This document shows, one piece after another, positions 9,021-21,370 of a stretch of DNA of 64,000 bases. The position numbers were made by a program, and so were the translations under genes. Source of the DNA: Methylocystis sp. MJC1 (GTDB lineage Bacteria > Pseudomonadota > Alphaproteobacteria > Rhizobiales > Beijerinckiaceae); assembly GCF_026427715.1 (NCBI RefSeq), contig NZ_CP107558.1:2579001-2643000 (forward strand), written 5' to 3'. Numbering within the stretch: the stretch's first letter is position 1; the number at the start of each line of letters is the position of its first letter. The notes under the pieces were generated by a model, which was given only the letters and a program-made list of their open reading frames with translations, ran no database searches and was not told the DNA's origin.

Positions 9021-10922
9021 CTATTCTTGGGCGGCGGCCTCCACTTGCGCAGGACCGTGGCTCGGCTCCAGTAATGCGTCGCCGTCCGACGGCGGCAATC
9101 GCCCGGCCTGAAGGAAGATCTTGTTGTAGATAGAAAGATTCAAGAACGCCACTGCCGCGCCGAAAAGTCCAGGCGCGTAAAACAGGGCGATGAGCAAGGG
9201 GTTGTCGGCGCGCCGGTATTTCCGAATGAAATCGAACACTTTCAGCATTTTTGGCGCATCGTCCAAAGCCTTGACGATGGCGTATCCCGCCGCGCCGACA
9301 AGCGCCGCCGGCAAGGTGTAGTACAATATGTTTTCAACGAGCAGTTTGTAGAGCTCGACAACGAGATCGAAGCGCTCCCACAAGAAGAAAAGCACTGGCG
9401 CAAGCAGAATGAGAGTGACGCCCCACGCCCGCGTGGGATCGGCATAGAAGGGTTTGAAGAACAAGTATTTCCCTATCAGGAGATGCGAAAGCAGCTTTTG
9501 CTTGTCGGTCTTAATCATCGACCGAATAGCGAGGAAACGCCACGGCCGCCGGGGCGCGCCACCGGGCGACGGCGCGCCGAGCCCCGCGTTGCTCTCATCG
9601 TGCTGAAGAAAATAGTCGATCAGACAGTAGCCGTCGTACATCAGCGTATAGGCTTCGACGTTCGAAAAAGCGTCGAGGTCAGTTCTGATATTGGAAAGGG
9701 CATAGATATGCCCGTCGTTCACGCCGTTGCACCGATCGACCGGTCCCGGCAGAAGCGGATATGTTGGATTTCCAGGGAAATCGTCACGCAGATGGAAAAA
9801 GACAAAGTTTCCGTCGCCTGGGCAATTACGAAGATTATCATAGCACTCAGCGCGAACGCGCGTCGCCAATATGTCGTTCGAGCGCGTAGCGACAGGCAGC
9901 AGCTGAATGTCCGGCGTGCGATTCCCATCCAATTGTCCGGATGCATCGCTGCAAATCATCAAGTCGCAATTTTCAGAAAGCAACGCCTCGACGCCCTGAT
10001 TGTCGTAAACGCCGCCATCAACCAGCTCGACCACAATCTCTTCGCCATTCGCGCCCCGCGGATAAAGATCGTGGATCGCGAGGGGCGTAAAGATCGCGGG
10101 GACGCAGGCTGACGCGGCGACCGCTTCAGAAAGGCCGATCTGCGCCAGTTTCTTTTGCTGCTCCGGCGTCAAAGTGGGGTCCGAGTAACTGATCCGCGGC
10201 AATGGCTTTATCGTGCCGATCGGATTTGCCGACGGGACCTCGCCCAGGTCCGTCGCGGTGAAAACCCACCGGCCGCCGGTGTTCAACGACGTCGCGTTGA
10301 TGTTCAGGATCGGAATCTTGAAATCTGAGGTTGCATTATACTGCCGCACATTAAAGCCGCGCGGCATCCAGGCTGGGGTGATCAGCAAATCCGTAAGCGG
10401 GATTTTTTCACCCGGATGCTTTGAGAATCTGCTGTAAAAGCACTCCTCATAAACTTCTGCGATGCGGTCGCTTCTCGAATAATCATCCGAGAAAATCATT
10501 CGGGCGTTGGCGACAGGATCCAACAGCGCCTTCATTCTGACATTCGTCTGGACCGCCGCCAGAAATTCGCTCTCGATCTCCGCGACGATGTCCACATAGT
10601 CCTGCGAAGTCGGCAAAACGGGTTCGCCATTCGCGTCGAGTGGCCTCTCCTCGAGCCGTTTCTTGAGCTTGAGATAATAAAAGGCGCCGATGACGGAGCC
10701 GCCGGAAACGGTAGAGAGCACATCGACGCGCCGCAGCAGGTCGAGCTCGGCCAATCGCGCCAGGACGCCGATATGGAAGAGCGAGGCGCGGAAACCGCCG
10801 CCGGACAAAGCGAGTCCCAACTTCTGGCCGGGCGCAAGGCTCCATACAGTGGGGATATAGGCGCCGACATTCGGCACAATGGCTTGAATCTGCACGATGG
10901 TTTGAATCTGCACAGTGGTCAC
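9021..10922 (-). CDS. Patatin-like phospholipase with C-terminal membrane helices, ~633 aa
   Basis: The catalytic domain shows the oxyanion glycine loop (LALSGGGFRASLFHIGVLARL), the nucleophile serine in STVSGGS (a TxSxG variant of GxSxG) and the Asp of the dyad in ELVDGGVYDNQG. Three to four hydrophobic segments lie in the last 170 residues (about 465-600), so the enzyme is probably anchored in the inner membrane and hydrolyses lipid acyl esters. GTG at 10920-10922 is chosen because CGGAGG lies five bases upstream; the frame is open five codons further, to GTG 10937. The N-terminus has a tandem duplication (VQIQTI-VQIQAI). A small 96-codon gene follows immediately. Confidence 0.85.
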   Translation of the reverse strand: MTTVQIQTIVQIQAIVPNVGAYIPTVWSLAPGQKLGLALSGGGFRASLFHIGVLARLAELDLLRRVDVLSTVSGGSVIGAFYYLKLKKRLEERPLDANGEPVLPTSQDYVDIVAEIESEFLAAVQTNVRMKALLDPVANARMIFSDDYSRSDRIAEVYEECFYSRFSKHPGEKIPLTDLLITPAWMPRGFNVRQYNATSDFKIPILNINATSLNTGGRWVFTATDLGEVPSANPIGTIKPLPRISYSDPTLTPEQQKKLAQIGLSEAVAASACVPAIFTPLAIHDLYPRGANGEEIVVELVDGGVYDNQGVEALLSENCDLMICSDASGQLDGNRTPDIQLLPVATRSNDILATRVRAECYDNLRNCPGDGNFVFFHLRDDFPGNPTYPLLPGPVDRCNGVNDGHIYALSNIRTDLDAFSNVEAYTLMYDGYCLIDYFLQHDESNAGLGAPSPGGAPRRPWRFLAIRSMIKTDKQKLLSHLLIGKYLFFKPFYADPTRAWGVTLILLAPVLFFLWERFDLVVELYKLLVENILYYTLPAALVGAAGYAIVKALDDAPKMLKVFDFIRKYRRADNPLLIALFYAPGLFGAAVAFLNLSIYNKIFLQAGRLPPSDGDALLEPSHGPAQVEAAAQE

Positions 10923-11044
10923 AAAAACCTCCGTCACTGAAATGAAATAGAAGATTAACGCTCGTATCCGCGTTTTGACAACGGGTCTATCTTTCTTCTC
11001 GAGCTGGAGGCGGAAGCGCGGGCGCTATATCCCGCCGCTCTTTT

Positions 11045-14781: not shown

Positions 14782-15132
14782 CTAATCGCAGACCTGGGCC
14801 CTGCGATAGCCGACCACATTCCCCCAGCCGTCCATGACGGGGCGATCGACGGGGTAGCAGTCGCCGTAATAGCCGCCATAGGACCCGTAGCGGGGCTGGC
14901 TCATCGCCCCGGCGGCGACGCCCAGCGCCAGACCACCGATCGCCGCCGCGGCGACCGCGCCGCCATTGTTCCAGCCGCCGTGATGTCCCCAACCGCCGCG
15001 ATAACCCCAGCCGGGGCCGCCATAGCCGCCATGCCAGCCCCAGCCATCGGCGGCGGCGGGCGAGACGGCGCTGGCGCCGAGCAACCCGGCGAGAACCGTA
15101 AGAGCGATTGTCTTTCTGACATTCAGGCGCAT
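14782..15132 (-). CDS. Secreted Gly/Trp/His/Tyr-rich small protein, 116 aa
   Basis: The ATG at 15130-15132 follows a GGGAGCC ribosome site; the frame is open a further 15 codons, but those residues are charged and precede a good signal peptide (KTIALTVLAGLLGASAVSPAAA). The mature N-terminal part is a low-complexity Gly/Trp/His/Tyr region (GWGWHGGYGGPGWGY type). An Ala/Gly hydrophobic segment follows (AAIGGLALGVAAGA), then a C-terminal Cys-containing domain (GDCYPVDRPV to AQVCD). Similar glycine-rich exported proteins are common in Hyphomicrobiales, but the function is unknown. It converges with the inhibitor gene. Confidence 0.75.
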   Translation of the reverse strand: MRLNVRKTIALTVLAGLLGASAVSPAAADGWGWHGGYGGPGWGYRGGWGHHGGWNNGGAVAAAAIGGLALGVAAGAMSQPRYGSYGGYYGDCYPVDRPVMDGWGNVVGYRRAQVCD

Positions 15133-15306
15133 TGGAGGCTCCCTTTGCTCGAGGCGTTTCGTCAACCTCGGCCTCATGAAGCCACTATCGCGCCGCGCGC
15201 CTGAACCGGAGGTGTCCGCGCCATTCAGCTTCCAGTCATCTTTTTGCGAATAGCGCCGGTTGCGCTTATTGTATTGCCATACTCGTGGTTGGCGGGGAGA
15301 GGCCGA

Positions 15307-15972
15307 TTGACCGCCGAAAAGCAGATACGCCTAATGATCGCCGAGGATCAGAGCGTGATCCGCAAGGCGTTGGCGGCGCTCCTGGCGCTCGAGAAGGATA
15401 TTGCGGTTGTCGCCACGGCCGCCGACGGCGAGCAGGCGGTCAGCGCCGCCCTCGCCTATGCGCCCGACGTCGTCCTGATGGACCTCAAAATGCCGCGCAT
15501 GGACGGCATTGCCGCGACCCGCGCCATTTTGGCGAAATCCCCCCTGATCCGCATCATCATGCTCACGACCTTCGACGCCGACGAGTTTGTCTTCGAGGCG
15601 GTGTCCGCCGGCGCACAGGGCTATCTGCTGAAGGACGCCGAAGAGGCCGAAATCCTCTCCGCCATCCGCGCGGCGGCGCGAGGCGAGCCACGTCTGTCGC
15701 CGAGCGTCGCGGCAAAGATCCTTGCCGAGTTCCGCCGCGTCAAAATGCCTGGCAAGCCGCTCACGGCGGCGGCCAACGACGGCCAGGAGCCGCTCACCGA
15801 CCGCGAGAAGGACGTGCTCAACCATGTCGCCGCGGGGAAAGGCAACCGCGAAATCGCACGCGAAATGGGCCTGGCCGAAGGCACAGTGAAAAATCACGTG
15901 TCGACCATTCTCGCCAAGCTGCATTTGCGCAGCCGGACAGAACTGGCGATACGCGCGCTATCGGAACGGTAA
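15307..15972 (+). CDS. NarL/FixJ-family response regulator (orphan)
   Basis: A receiver domain (about residues 5-120) with acidic pocket AEDQ, phospho-acceptor Asp in VVLMDLKMPRMDG, switch Thr in MLTTFD and Lys in YLLKDAEE. A LuxR-type helix-turn-helix follows (LTDREKDVLNHVAAGKGNREIA, then GTVKNHVSTILAKL). A TTG at 15307 is chosen as start because GGGGAGAGG lies six bases upstream and the receiver fold begins at once; the frame opens at 15244. No histidine kinase gene is adjacent, so the signal is unknown. The large STAND gene begins 68 bases downstream in the same direction. Confidence 0.88.
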   Translation: MTAEKQIRLMIAEDQSVIRKALAALLALEKDIAVVATAADGEQAVSAALAYAPDVVLMDLKMPRMDGIAATRAILAKSPLIRIIMLTTFDADEFVFEAVSAGAQGYLLKDAEEAEILSAIRAAARGEPRLSPSVAAKILAEFRRVKMPGKPLTAAANDGQEPLTDREKDVLNHVAAGKGNREIAREMGLAEGTVKNHVSTILAKLHLRSRTELAIRALSER

Positions 15973-16040
15973 AGTCTGCCAGCTCGTTGCGGAACAAAGT
16001 GGAAATGAATATGCCTCCTTATTCGCTTAAGGAGGAAAGC

Positions 16041-19000
16041 TTGGCGCTGCCCGACATTAGCTTCGAGACGATTCGCCCTCACGACGACAGCCGCAACTCC
16101 GGGTTCGAAGAGCTATGCGCTCAACTGGCTTCGCTGGAGCCGGCGGAACCGAATTCGGCATTCTTTCGAAAAGGGCGCGGGGGTGATGCTGGCGTCGAAT
16201 GTTTCCTCCGCCAAGCGGACGGATCGGAACGTGGATGGCAGGCGAAATACCTCTTCACCTGGGACGCCTCTCTTTCGCAACAACTCAGCGAATCAATTGA
16301 AACGGCGCTGATCAAACACCCAAAGTTGACCGATTACATTGTCTGCCTGCCGTTTGACCTGCCGGACGTGAAGCCTGCGAAAGGATTGAGCGCGCTCGCC
16401 AAGTGGGAAACTTGGAAAGCGAAGTGGGAAAAAACCGCAAAGGAAGCTGAGCGGAAGCTGCAAATTTACCTCTGGGATAAGAGCGCCCTCAGCAGCCGAT
16501 TGTCGCGCGATGACGCGATGTACGCCGGCCGTCTGATCTATTGGTTCGGGGTTCAGTCTCTGACCAAAGGTTGGTTTGAAGACCAGTTCGAGAAAGCTCG
16601 GGCGGGCCTGGGTTCGCGATACACACCCGAGAGCAATGTCGAACTCCCGGTTCGGCAAAAGTTCCTGTCGCTGGTTCGCGACCCGAAGTTTGGGAAGGCG
16701 CTGGCCCGATGGGCCACCGGGCTGAGAGAAAAAGGGAGTTCCACCCTCCGAGCGATCAAAGAAGCGGTTCCGGTGGGCGAAGAAGACAATCATACCCGGC
16801 CGCTGGAGCAGGCGCTGGATGATCTCACCGATCGTCTGCGAGCCAGACCTGTCGAAGCAGATACCCCGCTGCCGCTACAGGAATGGTCCGATAGCGCTTC
16901 GCGTTGTCTGGCGTGCGCGCGTTCAGCGCTGAGCTGGACGTTTGGAATACCGCCCGGAAAGCCAAGATCGTCGGGGATCGACCCGCAACGCTGGGCTCAG
17001 CACAATTTGCATCGGCTGCTCGATCTACTCAGCGAAGTTCGCGACTCGTTGGACTCTGACGTTTGGCATCTCGCCAACTGCCAGGCTGTGCTGCTGGAGG
17101 GACCCGCCGGTATCGGTAAATCGCACCTCCTTGCTGATGTCGTCGAACACCAAATTCACCTAGGCCGGCCGGCGCTTCTGGTACTCGGAAGTTCGCTCAC
17201 TGACAGCGAGCCATGGCGACAGATCATGGCGGAGTTGGATCTTCCTTCTACTCAGCAGGTGAAGCATTTCCTCGGTAGCATGGATGCGGTTGCGCAGGCT
17301 GCTGGCGTGCGCGCCCTCATCTGCGTCGATGCTCTCAACGAGCGGCATGGTTTAGACATTTGGCCGACCCGTCTGGCCGCTTTTCTGAAGACCGTCGAAC
17401 CGTTCAAAAACGTCGGCGTCGCACTGTCATGCCGATCGACGTTTGTCGCGCATGTCGTGCCTGAGGATGTCGATGAAGCGCACCTCGCCCGCATTGAGCA
17501 CCCTGGATTTGGTGGGGAAAGCGGTGCCGCCGCGAAAATGTACTTGAGCAAACGCGGCGTCGTTCGACCCGGCGCACCCAACTTGGTGCCAGAGTTTGAG
17601 AACCCGCTTTTTCTAAAGACCTGTTGCGACTTCCTCGAGCGGGAAGGCCGGCGAGAATTGCCGCGCGGACTTCTTGGTGTCACGGCGATTTTCGGCTTCT
17701 ACAACGAGGCGGTCGCCAAGCAGCTAAGCCGACGCATGAAGCTCGATCCGGCTTTAGGGATCGTGAAGTCCGCTATCGATGGCTTTGCCAAGCTGCTGCT
17801 GGACGCGCGGCAAAACTATGTAACCCGGGAAGACGCCATCAAACTTTTCGAACAGATATTGCCATCGGGAGGCCGCATCGAGCGCTGCCTTCTGACTCAA
17901 CTCGAGAGCGAAGGCCTGCTGTCGGTCGAAATGGTGCGCCAGGACGACGACTCGCTTCGCGCGATGGTGCGCTTCACGTTCGAGCGCTTCAGCGATCACG
18001 CCATAGCCTCGCGCGTGCTCGATGAACATCTTGCACTCGGGGGTGTGGATAAGGCGTTTGCCGATGGCACGCGTCTACGCGAGATCGTTTTCGGCGAAGA
18101 GAGCTATCGTTACGCGGGGATCATCGAGGCCCTGGCCGTTCAGCTTCCTGAGCGTGCCGATGTCGAGCTACTCGACGTTGGGAAGCCTACCTGGGAAACG
18201 AGAAACGCGTTTGAAGAGAGCCTGCTTTGGCGTGACCAAGCTCATTTTTCGGATCGCACGTTTGAGCTGGTCCGCGAGTTTCTCGCACACCGCGAGAGCG
18301 ATGTGCTGCTGTCGGTAGCGACGGAGCCAGCCAACAAGTTCAACGCCCTTTACCTAGATAAGCGCCTGCGTGATTACTCCATGCCGGAGCGCGATGGCAA
18401 ATGGTCGCTTTACGTCGCTGATCATGGGGACAACGAGGGCGGTGCTATCGAGACACTCATCACCTGGGGACTGGAGAACGGCACCGAGGCGATCGAGGCT
18501 GATCGCGCGGAACTCGCTGCGATTGCGCTGGGATGGCTATTAAGCACCTCGAACCGTTGGGTGCGCGATCGCGCAACAAAGTCCCTGGCCGTCATATTCG
18601 CCAAACGTCTGGACCTTGCCGCGTCGATCCTTCGTCGCTTCAACAATGTGGACGACCTGTATGTTTTAGAGCGGCTATATGCGGGTGCGTACGGTGCAGT
18701 CCTGCAGGGCGTAGCGAGCAATTGCCGCGGCGAGCTTGCTGCCACCGTGTTTGATTTAGTGTTCGCCAAGGGAACGCCGCCAGCAAACATCCTGCTCCGA
18801 GACAACGCCTACGGTATCATCAAGTACGTAGAGATGCGGGGCGAGCTACCGGCCATAGTTGACCAAGCTCTCTTCGAACCGCCCTACAAAAGCCCTTGGC
18901 CGCCCGAGCGTGTGCCGGATCGGATCATCGAATCTTTCACGATGGACTATGGAAAAGGGCAGCGTTTCACTGACGCGATCGTCAGCTCTACGGTCCATGA

Positions 19001-20720
19001 TGGCGACTTCGCTCGTTACGTCATCGACAGTCGCTTGCACGATTGGAGCCCAGAACCAATCGGGTCGACCGCTTACCCGACTTACAGAGAAGTGTGCCTA
19101 TCCTGGGTGCGAGAGTTTGAGGAAAGCGCGACACCAGAACAGATCAGCGCGCTCAGCGCAATCCTCGATGCTGCAGCCACGATGGAGGGAACGCGTTTGT
19201 TACCTCGTGGCGAGAAGGACGCTCTCGACCTAGCGAACGACCACTTTCAATCCCTCCTCACTGAAGAACAGTGGGAGGACTACCGGGTCCGCGCAAAACA
19301 TTTCATCGCCTTCACCCTTTTTGCCCCCCACCGGAGCGAGCAGCAAGCTCGCTTCAACACCCAATGGACGCGCCGATGGATCTGCAAGCGCGCTCATGAT
19401 CTGGGCTGGACGGCTGAGCGTTTCGGACAAAGAGATCGTGGACGCGGTAGCGACCGCCATGACCATCGCGTCGAGCGAATCGGCAAGAAATACCAATGGC
19501 TGGCCCTGTACGAACTCGCAGCCCGGATGTCCGACAATCTAGCGTTCCTAGGCGGTTACGGCGACTATCAGGAGGGCGAGGATCGGGGCTATGGGAGCGC
19601 GCGTGAGTTACGCATGCGCGACATCGACCCCTCCCTCCTCGTCACACGAACAAATTACGATAGTTGGGCGCAATGGGAGCGAACTTGGTGGGTACCAATG
19701 GAGCCCAAGCTCCAGTCAGTGAGCCCCTCCGAACGGATTGCTTGGTTGAACAGTGACCAGGACGTCGTCAACGACGCTTCGCTGATCGACGTCTTGAATC
19801 CAAAAACCAAACAGCGATGGCTGTGTCTTCACGCCTTCGCCAGTTGGCGTCAGCAAGGAATGGTTGATGATCGCGAAGAGTTGGAGCGCGACACTTGGTT
19901 CCGTCTGCATTGCGTGGTCGTGAAAAAGGAAGACGAAAAGAAGCTCCTCCGCGACCTTTCAAAGAAGACGCTGACCGACCCTCACGGCCTGCCTCATATC
20001 GAGCTGCATGGTGACTACTTCCTGGGCGAGTACCCTTGGCATCCATCCGTCAATCGGTTCGGCGATTGGACTGTGCCTGGGGAATGGCGCGCGCGCGCAG
20101 TGCCTACGCGCGCGACGGTGGCCGACTACATGTGCGAGCGCGGTGGCTATGACTATTCGCTCGACGAGACGGTTCACGTCGAGTTGCCGGCGCCGTGGCT
20201 GGCCAGTGCACTACGCATTTGTCTTTCCGACGGGCGAAAGCTGAACTATGTCGACGTCAACGGAAACGTGGTTTTCTATGATCCCTCCGTTACCGAGATT
20301 GGGCCTCAAGCAGCCCTTGTCGATCGTAATGCATTCTTAGCGATGCTTGAACGAGAAGGGCTTGCAGCCGTTTGGGTCATCGCCGGCGAAAAGAGCGTAT
20401 ACGGAGGCCGCGATGCCTTCGGAGGACGGGCGCTTCACACCGCCGTCTACCATCTCGACAGTGAAGGATTTAAGCGCCAGATCCATCGGGAGCGGGAGGA
20501 TCCATCACCAAGCCAACTTCAGGCGCTGTTCTGGCCAGAAAAGGTGCCGCTTGGCCTGACGGTTCGGTCATCGCCGAAGTCTCAAGCTCCCGCAAAGACG
20601 GGGGCCGCAAAGCCTAAGTCCGCAAAGCCGAAGGCTCGGCGGCAATCAAAAAAAAGCCCGGCGAGCGGCCCGGCTTCCTCCGGCCTCGCCATCCTGTGCA
20701 GCAAGACGCCCAAAAGATAA
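16041..20720 (+). CDS. avs2: Avs2-like anti-phage STAND NTPase with N-terminal Mrr-like nuclease, ~1559 aa
   Basis: Start TTG 16041 is preferred: an ideal AAGGAGG sits five bases upstream, although in-frame ATGs exist at 16005 and 16011. Residues about 20-110 form a restriction-endonuclease-like domain (GFEELCAQL, GRGGDAGVECF with the metal Asp, GWQAKY giving the QxK of Mrr-type nucleases). A STAND/NACHT-like P-loop follows: Walker A GPAGIGKS at about 354-361, Walker B ICVDALNE near 430. The long C-terminal half is helical and probably the sensor, and includes ERIGKKYQW near 1145. In characterised AVAST proteins the C-terminal part binds a conserved phage protein such as the terminase, and oligomerisation activates the nuclease. 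Family assignment is from memory of this architecture. GC looks lower than the neighbours, which suggests horizontal acquisition. The last ~20 codons run antisense into a truncated gene. Confidence 0.8.
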   Translation: MALPDISFETIRPHDDSRNSGFEELCAQLASLEPAEPNSAFFRKGRGGDAGVECFLRQADGSERGWQAKYLFTWDASLSQQLSESIETALIKHPKLTDYIVCLPFDLPDVKPAKGLSALAKWETWKAKWEKTAKEAERKLQIYLWDKSALSSRLSRDDAMYAGRLIYWFGVQSLTKGWFEDQFEKARAGLGSRYTPESNVELPVRQKFLSLVRDPKFGKALARWATGLREKGSSTLRAIKEAVPVGEEDNHTRPLEQALDDLTDRLRARPVEADTPLPLQEWSDSASRCLACARSALSWTFGIPPGKPRSSGIDPQRWAQHNLHRLLDLLSEVRDSLDSDVWHLANCQAVLLEGPAGIGKSHLLADVVEHQIHLGRPALLVLGSSLTDSEPWRQIMAELDLPSTQQVKHFLGSMDAVAQAAGVRALICVDALNERHGLDIWPTRLAAFLKTVEPFKNVGVALSCRSTFVAHVVPEDVDEAHLARIEHPGFGGESGAAAKMYLSKRGVVRPGAPNLVPEFENPLFLKTCCDFLEREGRRELPRGLLGVTAIFGFYNEAVAKQLSRRMKLDPALGIVKSAIDGFAKLLLDARQNYVTREDAIKLFEQILPSGGRIERCLLTQLESEGLLSVEMVRQDDDSLRAMVRFTFERFSDHAIASRVLDEHLALGGVDKAFADGTRLREIVFGEESYRYAGIIEALAVQLPERADVELLDVGKPTWETRNAFEESLLWRDQAHFSDRTFELVREFLAHRESDVLLSVATEPANKFNALYLDKRLRDYSMPERDGKWSLYVADHGDNEGGAIETLITWGLENGTEAIEADRAELAAIALGWLLSTSNRWVRDRATKSLAVIFAKRLDLAASILRRFNNVDDLYVLERLYAGAYGAVLQGVASNCRGELAATVFDLVFAKGTPPANILLRDNAYGIIKYVEMRGELPAIVDQALFEPPYKSPWPPERVPDRIIESFTMDYGKGQRFTDAIVSSTVHDGDFARYVIDSRLHDWSPEPIGSTAYPTYREVCLSWVREFEESATPEQISALSAILDAAATMEGTRLLPRGEKDALDLANDHFQSLLTEEQWEDYRVRAKHFIAFTLFAPHRSEQQARFNTQWTRRWICKRAHDLGWTAERFGQRDRGRGSDRHDHRVERIGKKYQWLALYELAARMSDNLAFLGGYGDYQEGEDRGYGSARELRMRDIDPSLLVTRTNYDSWAQWERTWWVPMEPKLQSVSPSERIAWLNSDQDVVNDASLIDVLNPKTKQRWLCLHAFASWRQQGMVDDREELERDTWFRLHCVVVKKEDEKKLLRDLSKKTLTDPHGLPHIELHGDYFLGEYPWHPSVNRFGDWTVPGEWRARAVPTRATVADYMCERGGYDYSLDETVHVELPAPWLASALRICLSDGRKLNYVDVNGNVVFYDPSVTEIGPQAALVDRNAFLAMLEREGLAAVWVIAGEKSVYGGRDAFGGRALHTAVYHLDSEGFKRQIHREREDPSPSQLQALFWPEKVPLGLTVRSSPKSQAPAKTGAAKPKSAKPKARRQSKKSPASGPASSGLAILCSKTPKR

Positions 20721-20842
20721 AGCGCCTCGAAATGCGTCGGGATCTTGTCGACGACTTTCCTCAGAAGGCGTTCGGCCGCTGCCGGGTTCCCCTCGCGGAA
20801 GAGGCGCTTGGCCTTCTCGATCTTCTCACTTTCGCGGTCCAA
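20582..20842 (-). pseudogene. Truncated TPR protein gene, fourth gene of the GTPase operon
   Basis: A TTG with GGAG five bases upstream starts 31 bases after the GTPase stop. The first ~57 codons (20672-20842) read as a good TPR unit (KAKRLFREGNPAAAERLLRK, then THFEALYLLGVLLHRMARPEEA). After PEEA the frame leaves any TPR pattern and enters a terminator-like hairpin and the antisense of the avs2 tail. TPR proteins normally contain several repeats, so this is most simply a gene cut by acquisition of the avs2 segment. An alternative is a genuine 86-residue protein. Confidence 0.6.
20648..20676 (-). terminator. Minus-strand hairpin with T-tract at the avs2 / GTPase-operon junction
   Basis: Read on the minus strand: a GC-rich nine-position stem with one mismatch (20668-20676 pairing with 20654-20662) followed by an uninterrupted run of eight or more T. 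It would terminate transcription coming from the GTPase operon and lies inside the final codons of the plus-strand avs2 frame. Confidence 0.55.
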
Positions 20843-20872
20843 GGCTGCTCCGAAGGGTTTGCGCTCCGCGCA

Positions 20873-21370
20873 CTACCTCGCCCGTCGCCAGATCGCATGG
20901 CCGAGCGACAGAAACATTTCCGCCACCCCCTGCCCCGTCTTGGCGCTCGTATAAACCGCGTCGAATTGCGATAAGGACGCGTCGGCTGCGAACTGGGGCG
21001 CGAGGTCGATCTTATTGACGATCGCCGCCACAGGACGGCCCGGAAATTTTTCTTCGAAACCGGTCGCGAGGCTCGCCATCTTTACGAGCGTCGCAGGACG
21101 CGTCACATCGGCGACGATAATTGCGGCCGAGGCGCCTGCGAGATAGACCGTCTCGAAAATCCGCAGGCCGAAATCCCCGTCCGTATCCCACAGGACGAAA
21201 CGCAATGTTGCATTATCGGCTTCGGCGCCGAGGTCGACGTCATGGGTGAGCACGTCGACGCCAATCGTCGTCTTGTACTCGCTCTCGAACCGATCGAAGA
21301 CGAAACGGCGCGCAAGCGATGATTTTCCGACGCCGATATCCCCGAGCAGCATGACTTTCGCCGACGTCAC
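20873..21370 (-). CDS. Ras-like small GTPase, 165 aa
   Basis: All small-GTPase boxes are visible: G1 GDIGVGKSS, a switch I-type Thr in YKTTIGVD, G3 WDTDGDFG, G4 NKID and G5 TSAK. The length is that of a bare Ras/Rab G domain without a lipidation tail. It overlaps the upstream OmpA-domain gene by four bases (ATGA), so the two are translationally coupled. Prokaryotic Ras-like GTPases are usually encoded with roadblock/longin-type regulators. The physiological role of this one is unknown. Confidence 0.88.
   Translation of the reverse strand: MTSAKVMLLGDIGVGKSSLARRFVFDRFESEYKTTIGVDVLTHDVDLGAEADNATLRFVLWDTDGDFGLRIFETVYLAGASAAIIVADVTRPATLVKMASLATGFEEKFPGRPVAAIVNKIDLAPQFAADASLSQFDAVYTSAKTGQGVAEMFLSLGHAIWRRAR

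Follow-up and report, generated by a model that had tools for sequence, protein, structure and literature searches.

A predicted one-gene Avs2-family STAND nuclease at a variable site in the genome of Methylocystis sp. MJC1

To which defence family does the long gene at positions 16041-20720 (+) of a 64,000-nucleotide stretch of the Methylocystis sp. MJC1 genome belong, how did it come to lie there, and which phage protein might its product detect? The stretch (positions 2,579,001 to 2,643,000 of contig NZ_CP107558.1) is called the window below. An earlier note, made from the sequence alone, had proposed a single-gene Avs2-like STAND nuclease, and its coordinates are correct: the frame runs from a TTG start through 1559 residues with no internal stop and encodes, in this order, a nuclease, a STAND NTPase and a sensor. 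The gene is present in a single copy in its own genome. We regard it, with a probability of about 0.88, as encoding a one-gene Avs2-family immune sensor that would detect a phage protein, cut DNA and abort the infection. The intact gene, the domain order, the conserved catalytic and Walker residues, the nuclease fold, the Avs2-type sensor and the variable site are read from the sequence and from structure models; by analogy, we infer phage-protein binding, oligomerisation, DNA cutting and cell death.

The PADLOC Avs2 model PDLC02164 (AVAST type 2) matches the protein over its full length with 1763 bits (residues 4-1491 against model positions 2-1502 of 1504), and five further Avs2 models in PADLOC match more weakly. 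The sole PADLOC match outside Avs2 is to GajB, with an expected value (E-value) of 0.018. The five Pfam matches all fall below threshold, four being to P-loop families, and the Pfam, PADLOC and NCBIfam scans gave no better match to another STAND family. The window protein and the PDLC02164 subfamily are alike in full length and domain order, nuclease included; no structural difference was found, and the protein is a further sequence in that subfamily. Its NTPase and sensor (residues 174-1476) also resemble those of the NCBIfam Avs2 equivalog NF041813, which matches residues 189-1476, and of Avs2 entry 9o4e, which among PDB sequences matches residues 174-1474. The NCBIfam Avs4 model NF041815 matches residues 15-101 only (E-value 0.092; 9.9 bits, where the cut-off is 1500) and not the full length. 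On the three points that the earlier note named as decisive, the results agree with it: an Avs profile is matched, no STAND family matches better, and the N-terminus has a predicted nuclease fold.

Residue counts given here refer to the 59 of 80 fetched loci that could be aligned; the other 21 had a stop within the matched range, were partial or masked, or had no such N-terminus. The effector, residues 1-188 (16041-16604, +), is an Mrr-like PD-(D/E)xK nuclease domain with E23/E24, D49, E53 and Q67-x-K69. D49, E53 and Q67 are found in 59/59 loci and K69 in 58/59, the conservation of D49 being partly selected for, since one of the two search patterns contained it. The columns of E23, E24, D49, E53, Q67 and K69 are invariant in 22 proteins from a separate search (hand-picked from 120 listed out of at least 520 matches). 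The predicted structure of the N-terminus (predicted local distance difference test score 94.5) runs helix, three strands, helix, strand, and its fold matches are EcAvs4 and restriction enzymes. It is confidently modelled as a PD-(D/E)xK nuclease, closest to that of Avs4, and the Mrr-like nuclease proposed from D49 and Q67-x-K69 is upheld. The proposed Walker A/B pair is likewise intact. Walker A (GPAGIGKS, residues 354-361; 17100-17123, +) has G354, G359 and K360 in 59/59 loci, and weak Pfam matches to AAA_16, AAA_22, NB-ARC and NACHT, all below their cut-offs, start at residues 346-349. In the Walker-B-like strand RALICVDALNE (residues 424-434; 17310-17342, +), D430 and N433 occur in 59/59 loci and E434 in 58/59.

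The sensor half was modelled over residues 640-1490 (17958-20510, +). It consists of helical repeats followed by a beta-rich C-terminal part: the model is mainly helical up to about residue 1240-1250 and mainly strands thereafter. The helical sensor half of about 1100 residues announced by the note thus stands up to about residue 1240, whereas the last third of the modelled range is beta-rich. A sensor profile built from 58 sequences, that of the window plus those of 57 of the 59 usable loci, matches 9o4e over profile positions 1-857 of 863 (E-value 1.2e-226), and by sequence the C-terminal sensor is Avs2-type. It differs in this from the sensor of EcAvs4 (PDB 8dgf). No Avs3 profile matched in PADLOC or NCBIfam. 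Avs2-type sensors fused to a PNP_UDP_1 domain (P0114, P0117, P0120 and P0121) share about 53% identity with the window protein where they match it; P0114, from its residue 255 onward, also matches PDLC02164. These proteins have a phosphorylase-type effector where the window protein has a nuclease. In three relatives (L011, L049 and L059) the open frame has no nuclease domain, and their effectors may be of another kind or encoded separately.

The TTG start is preceded at a distance of 5 nucleotides by a strong Shine-Dalgarno sequence, AAGGAGG (16029-16035, +). Sixteen of the 22 aligned proteins start exactly at the TTG column. The database-predicted protein P0002 has 1569 residues and starts 10 residues further upstream; because of the starts of the homologues and the Shine-Dalgarno sequence, the TTG is favoured.

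The site itself suggests how the gene arrived. On its left is a LuxR-type response-regulator gene (15331-15972, +; Pfam Response_reg and GerE), on the same strand with 68 bp between, and on its right a Ras-like GTPase gene (20873-21370, -; Pfam Ras). Of 38 other congeners, some with incomplete genomes, the same eight yielded both flanking genes (E-value at most 1e-60 for the response regulator and 0.001 for the GTPase), and in none of these eight does an Avs2 gene lie between them. They are 6 to 36 bases apart in five (G008, G009, G022, G033 and G034), and the other three have other DNA there. In G030 and G061 the flanks, about 89% identical to those of the window, enclose other cargo and are separated by 4.7 and 4.3 kb, respectively; the cargo of G030, the one scanned with Pfam, includes a methyltransferase, a LysE-type transporter and an esterase. 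The distance in G024 is 1.6 kb. The nearest relative found, L003 (84%), has the gene in common with the window and not the flanks, its copy lying between other genes. The only blastn match between window and L003 at an E-value of at most 1e-5 is 15984-20659 (+), about one gene, with 78.7% nucleotide identity. A quickly built 70-row tree pairs the two with full support (Shimodaira-Hasegawa-like approximate likelihood ratio 100). The clade around this pair also holds an Acidobacteriota sequence, which by itself does not prove transfer.

The G+C content (GC) is lower than that of the surroundings, as had been remarked: 0.585 for the open reading frame against 0.644 in the rest of the window, near the window minimum of 0.583 at this length. 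Stretches of 4680 bp with GC as low make up 0.8% of the window (100-base steps, those overlapping the frame counted), and the third-position GC of 0.655 is the lowest among 15 window genes compared. Because congener sites are near-empty, similarity to L003 stops near the gene ends and GC is low, the Avs2 gene was probably acquired horizontally, in a stretch of roughly one gene and at a variable site, in line with what the note had guessed; that the congeners lost the gene, rather than this genome gaining it, is formally conceivable. A search for terminal repeats (15961-16040 against 20691-20900, words of 8-12) returned one 8-base inverted match only.

A companion gene or multi-gene system is not supported, since the neighbours occur without an Avs2 gene between them in all eight other congeners that have both. 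Nor is a defence island around the gene supported in a PADLOC scan of nine proteins, five of them encoded by window neighbours and four by the G030 cargo. The helicase at 11045-12142 matches RecD-type models and, over part of their length, PDC-M16A models (best E-value 5.2e-43), the response regulator weakly matches CARF, SduA and CasR models, and the G030 methyltransferase matches mad2 (E-value 3e-16); we read these matches as shared domains. A patatin-like phospholipase gene (9021-10937, -) also has low GC (0.568) and no PADLOC match at an E-value of at most 0.001. A TPR fragment of 58 residues (20669-20842, -; Pfam TPR_19) overlaps the last codons of the Avs2 gene on the opposite strand; G008, G033 and G024 have similar stretches inside long open frames at other places in their genomes. 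A terminator-like stem (20654-20671) lies by the fragment and the end of the Avs2 gene. In the alternative cargo of two congeners, a short stretch (L083:4919-5053 and L084:2929-3063) matches window 15113-15203 and 15920-15972, pieces at or before the response-regulator gene, and resembles a remnant of a duplication.

Relatives are widespread. At least 520 of 7999 candidate proteins scored match at an E-value of at most 1e-3. At least 590 pattern matches, with one genome per species, gave at least 367 loci encoding relatives, of which the best 80 were kept; these come from many bacterial phyla and include one archaeal record, Methanoculleus. About 30 of the 80 are alphaproteobacterial, judged from record titles, a share that is biased because the 80 are the nearest loci; an Avs2 relative in this class is nothing unusual. 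Among 60 other genomes (36 congeners and 24 others of the order), a relative was found in one congener; it is 33% identical and best matched by a different Avs2 model, PDLC02161. The congener search left out the rest of genomes G061 and G062. Carriage on phages or plasmids found little favour: 2 of 50,697 phage records match, both partially and neither over 80% of the query. Of 72,556 plasmid records 63 match, none reaching 60% identity; in 42 of these the match spans 80% of the query or more. The gene is another member of the known Avs2 family with hundreds of members and not a new system.

As we picture it, the protein would stay inactive until its C-terminal half is bound by a phage protein that the infected cell produces, most likely the large terminase and possibly the portal or another. 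ATP-bound STAND domains would then form an oligomer that gathers the N-terminal Mrr-like PD-(D/E)xK nucleases, and these would cut phage and host DNA and so abort the infection. Several observations weigh against this account or parts of it. The NF041813 score is 925.1 bits and the cut-off 1000, and we therefore name the product an Avs2-family protein and not an equivalog of NF041813. About 170 N-terminal residues have no sequence match in 9o4e, an entry absent from the best 50 matches listed per fold search, which we do not take as evidence. The best fold match of the sensor, terminase-bound Avs3 (PDB 8dgc), superposes loosely (template modelling score 0.18; 7.3 A). The triggers reported for studied Avs2 proteins are terminase, Ksap1 or portal, and they do not single out one here. 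Finally, a prophage-like cluster lies in the host genome at about 544-570 kb of C1 (G000; L093, L094 and L095), with genes for small and large terminase, portal, protease, capsid, tape measure, tail, primase and a CI-like repressor. A PF03237 search had found no terminase, but the portal search (PF04860) led to a terminase of other Pfam families, so that a host without terminase is rejected. A broad terminase or portal sensor would therefore have to tolerate the cell's own prophage; if the sensor is of that kind, the prophage would be silent or its proteins unrecognised.

The nature of the trigger is accordingly where the alternatives weigh most. A sensor responding to portal, a Ksap1-like or an undescribed phage protein instead of terminase is a real prospect, to which we give somewhat less than an even chance. 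The Alcaligenes Avs2 is reported to respond to lambda portal, and the Klebsiella Avs2, as related in a citing paper, to Ksap1 besides terminase; the 56 other aligned sensors, L003 excepted, are 25-53% identical to that of the window, and the resident cluster encodes both terminase and portal. Yet the reported trigger of Avs1-3 is terminase, the terminase-bound Avs3 is the best fold match, and the host prophage could just be a silent or defective one. More doubtful is the proposal that the sensor clade has switched to a trigger other than the terminase or portal of the host prophage type, which would permit coexistence with the resident prophage, and that a hairpin at the Shine-Dalgarno sequence adds a second, translational safety catch.

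That hairpin, CCTCCTTA-TTCGCT-TAAGGAGG, has a perfect 8-bp stem (16014-16035) covering the Shine-Dalgarno sequence and is absent in L003. Together with the last 19 or so residues and the stop codon, which are encoded in flanking sequence not common with L003, it raises the prospect of a decaying or silent gene, its frame intact and its protein not made in useful amounts. A consensus scan directly upstream found no sigma-70-like site, but such a scan misses other promoter types; the 64-kb window holds 33 perfect 8-bp stems, overlapping ones included, and the hairpin region folds no better than shuffles (z -0.43). With 1559 stop-free codons and all motifs intact, we hold a silent gene to be improbable. 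Still further down is a STAND protein with a non-defence role, such as regulation with the upstream response regulator, of which the shared strand and close spacing might be a hint; the flanking pairs without the gene in the eight congeners, the different neighbours of the L003 copy and GajB as the one PADLOC match outside Avs2 make this very improbable.

An Avs2-family immune sensor is the reading we retain, and as such the gene is a routine addition to its family. The locus offers a clean case of apparent single-gene acquisition, in which the corresponding site of congeners is almost empty or otherwise filled. Only prophage tolerance raises a question that routine annotation does not cover: the host's own prophage-like terminase and portal ask what Avs2 sensors ignore, and why.
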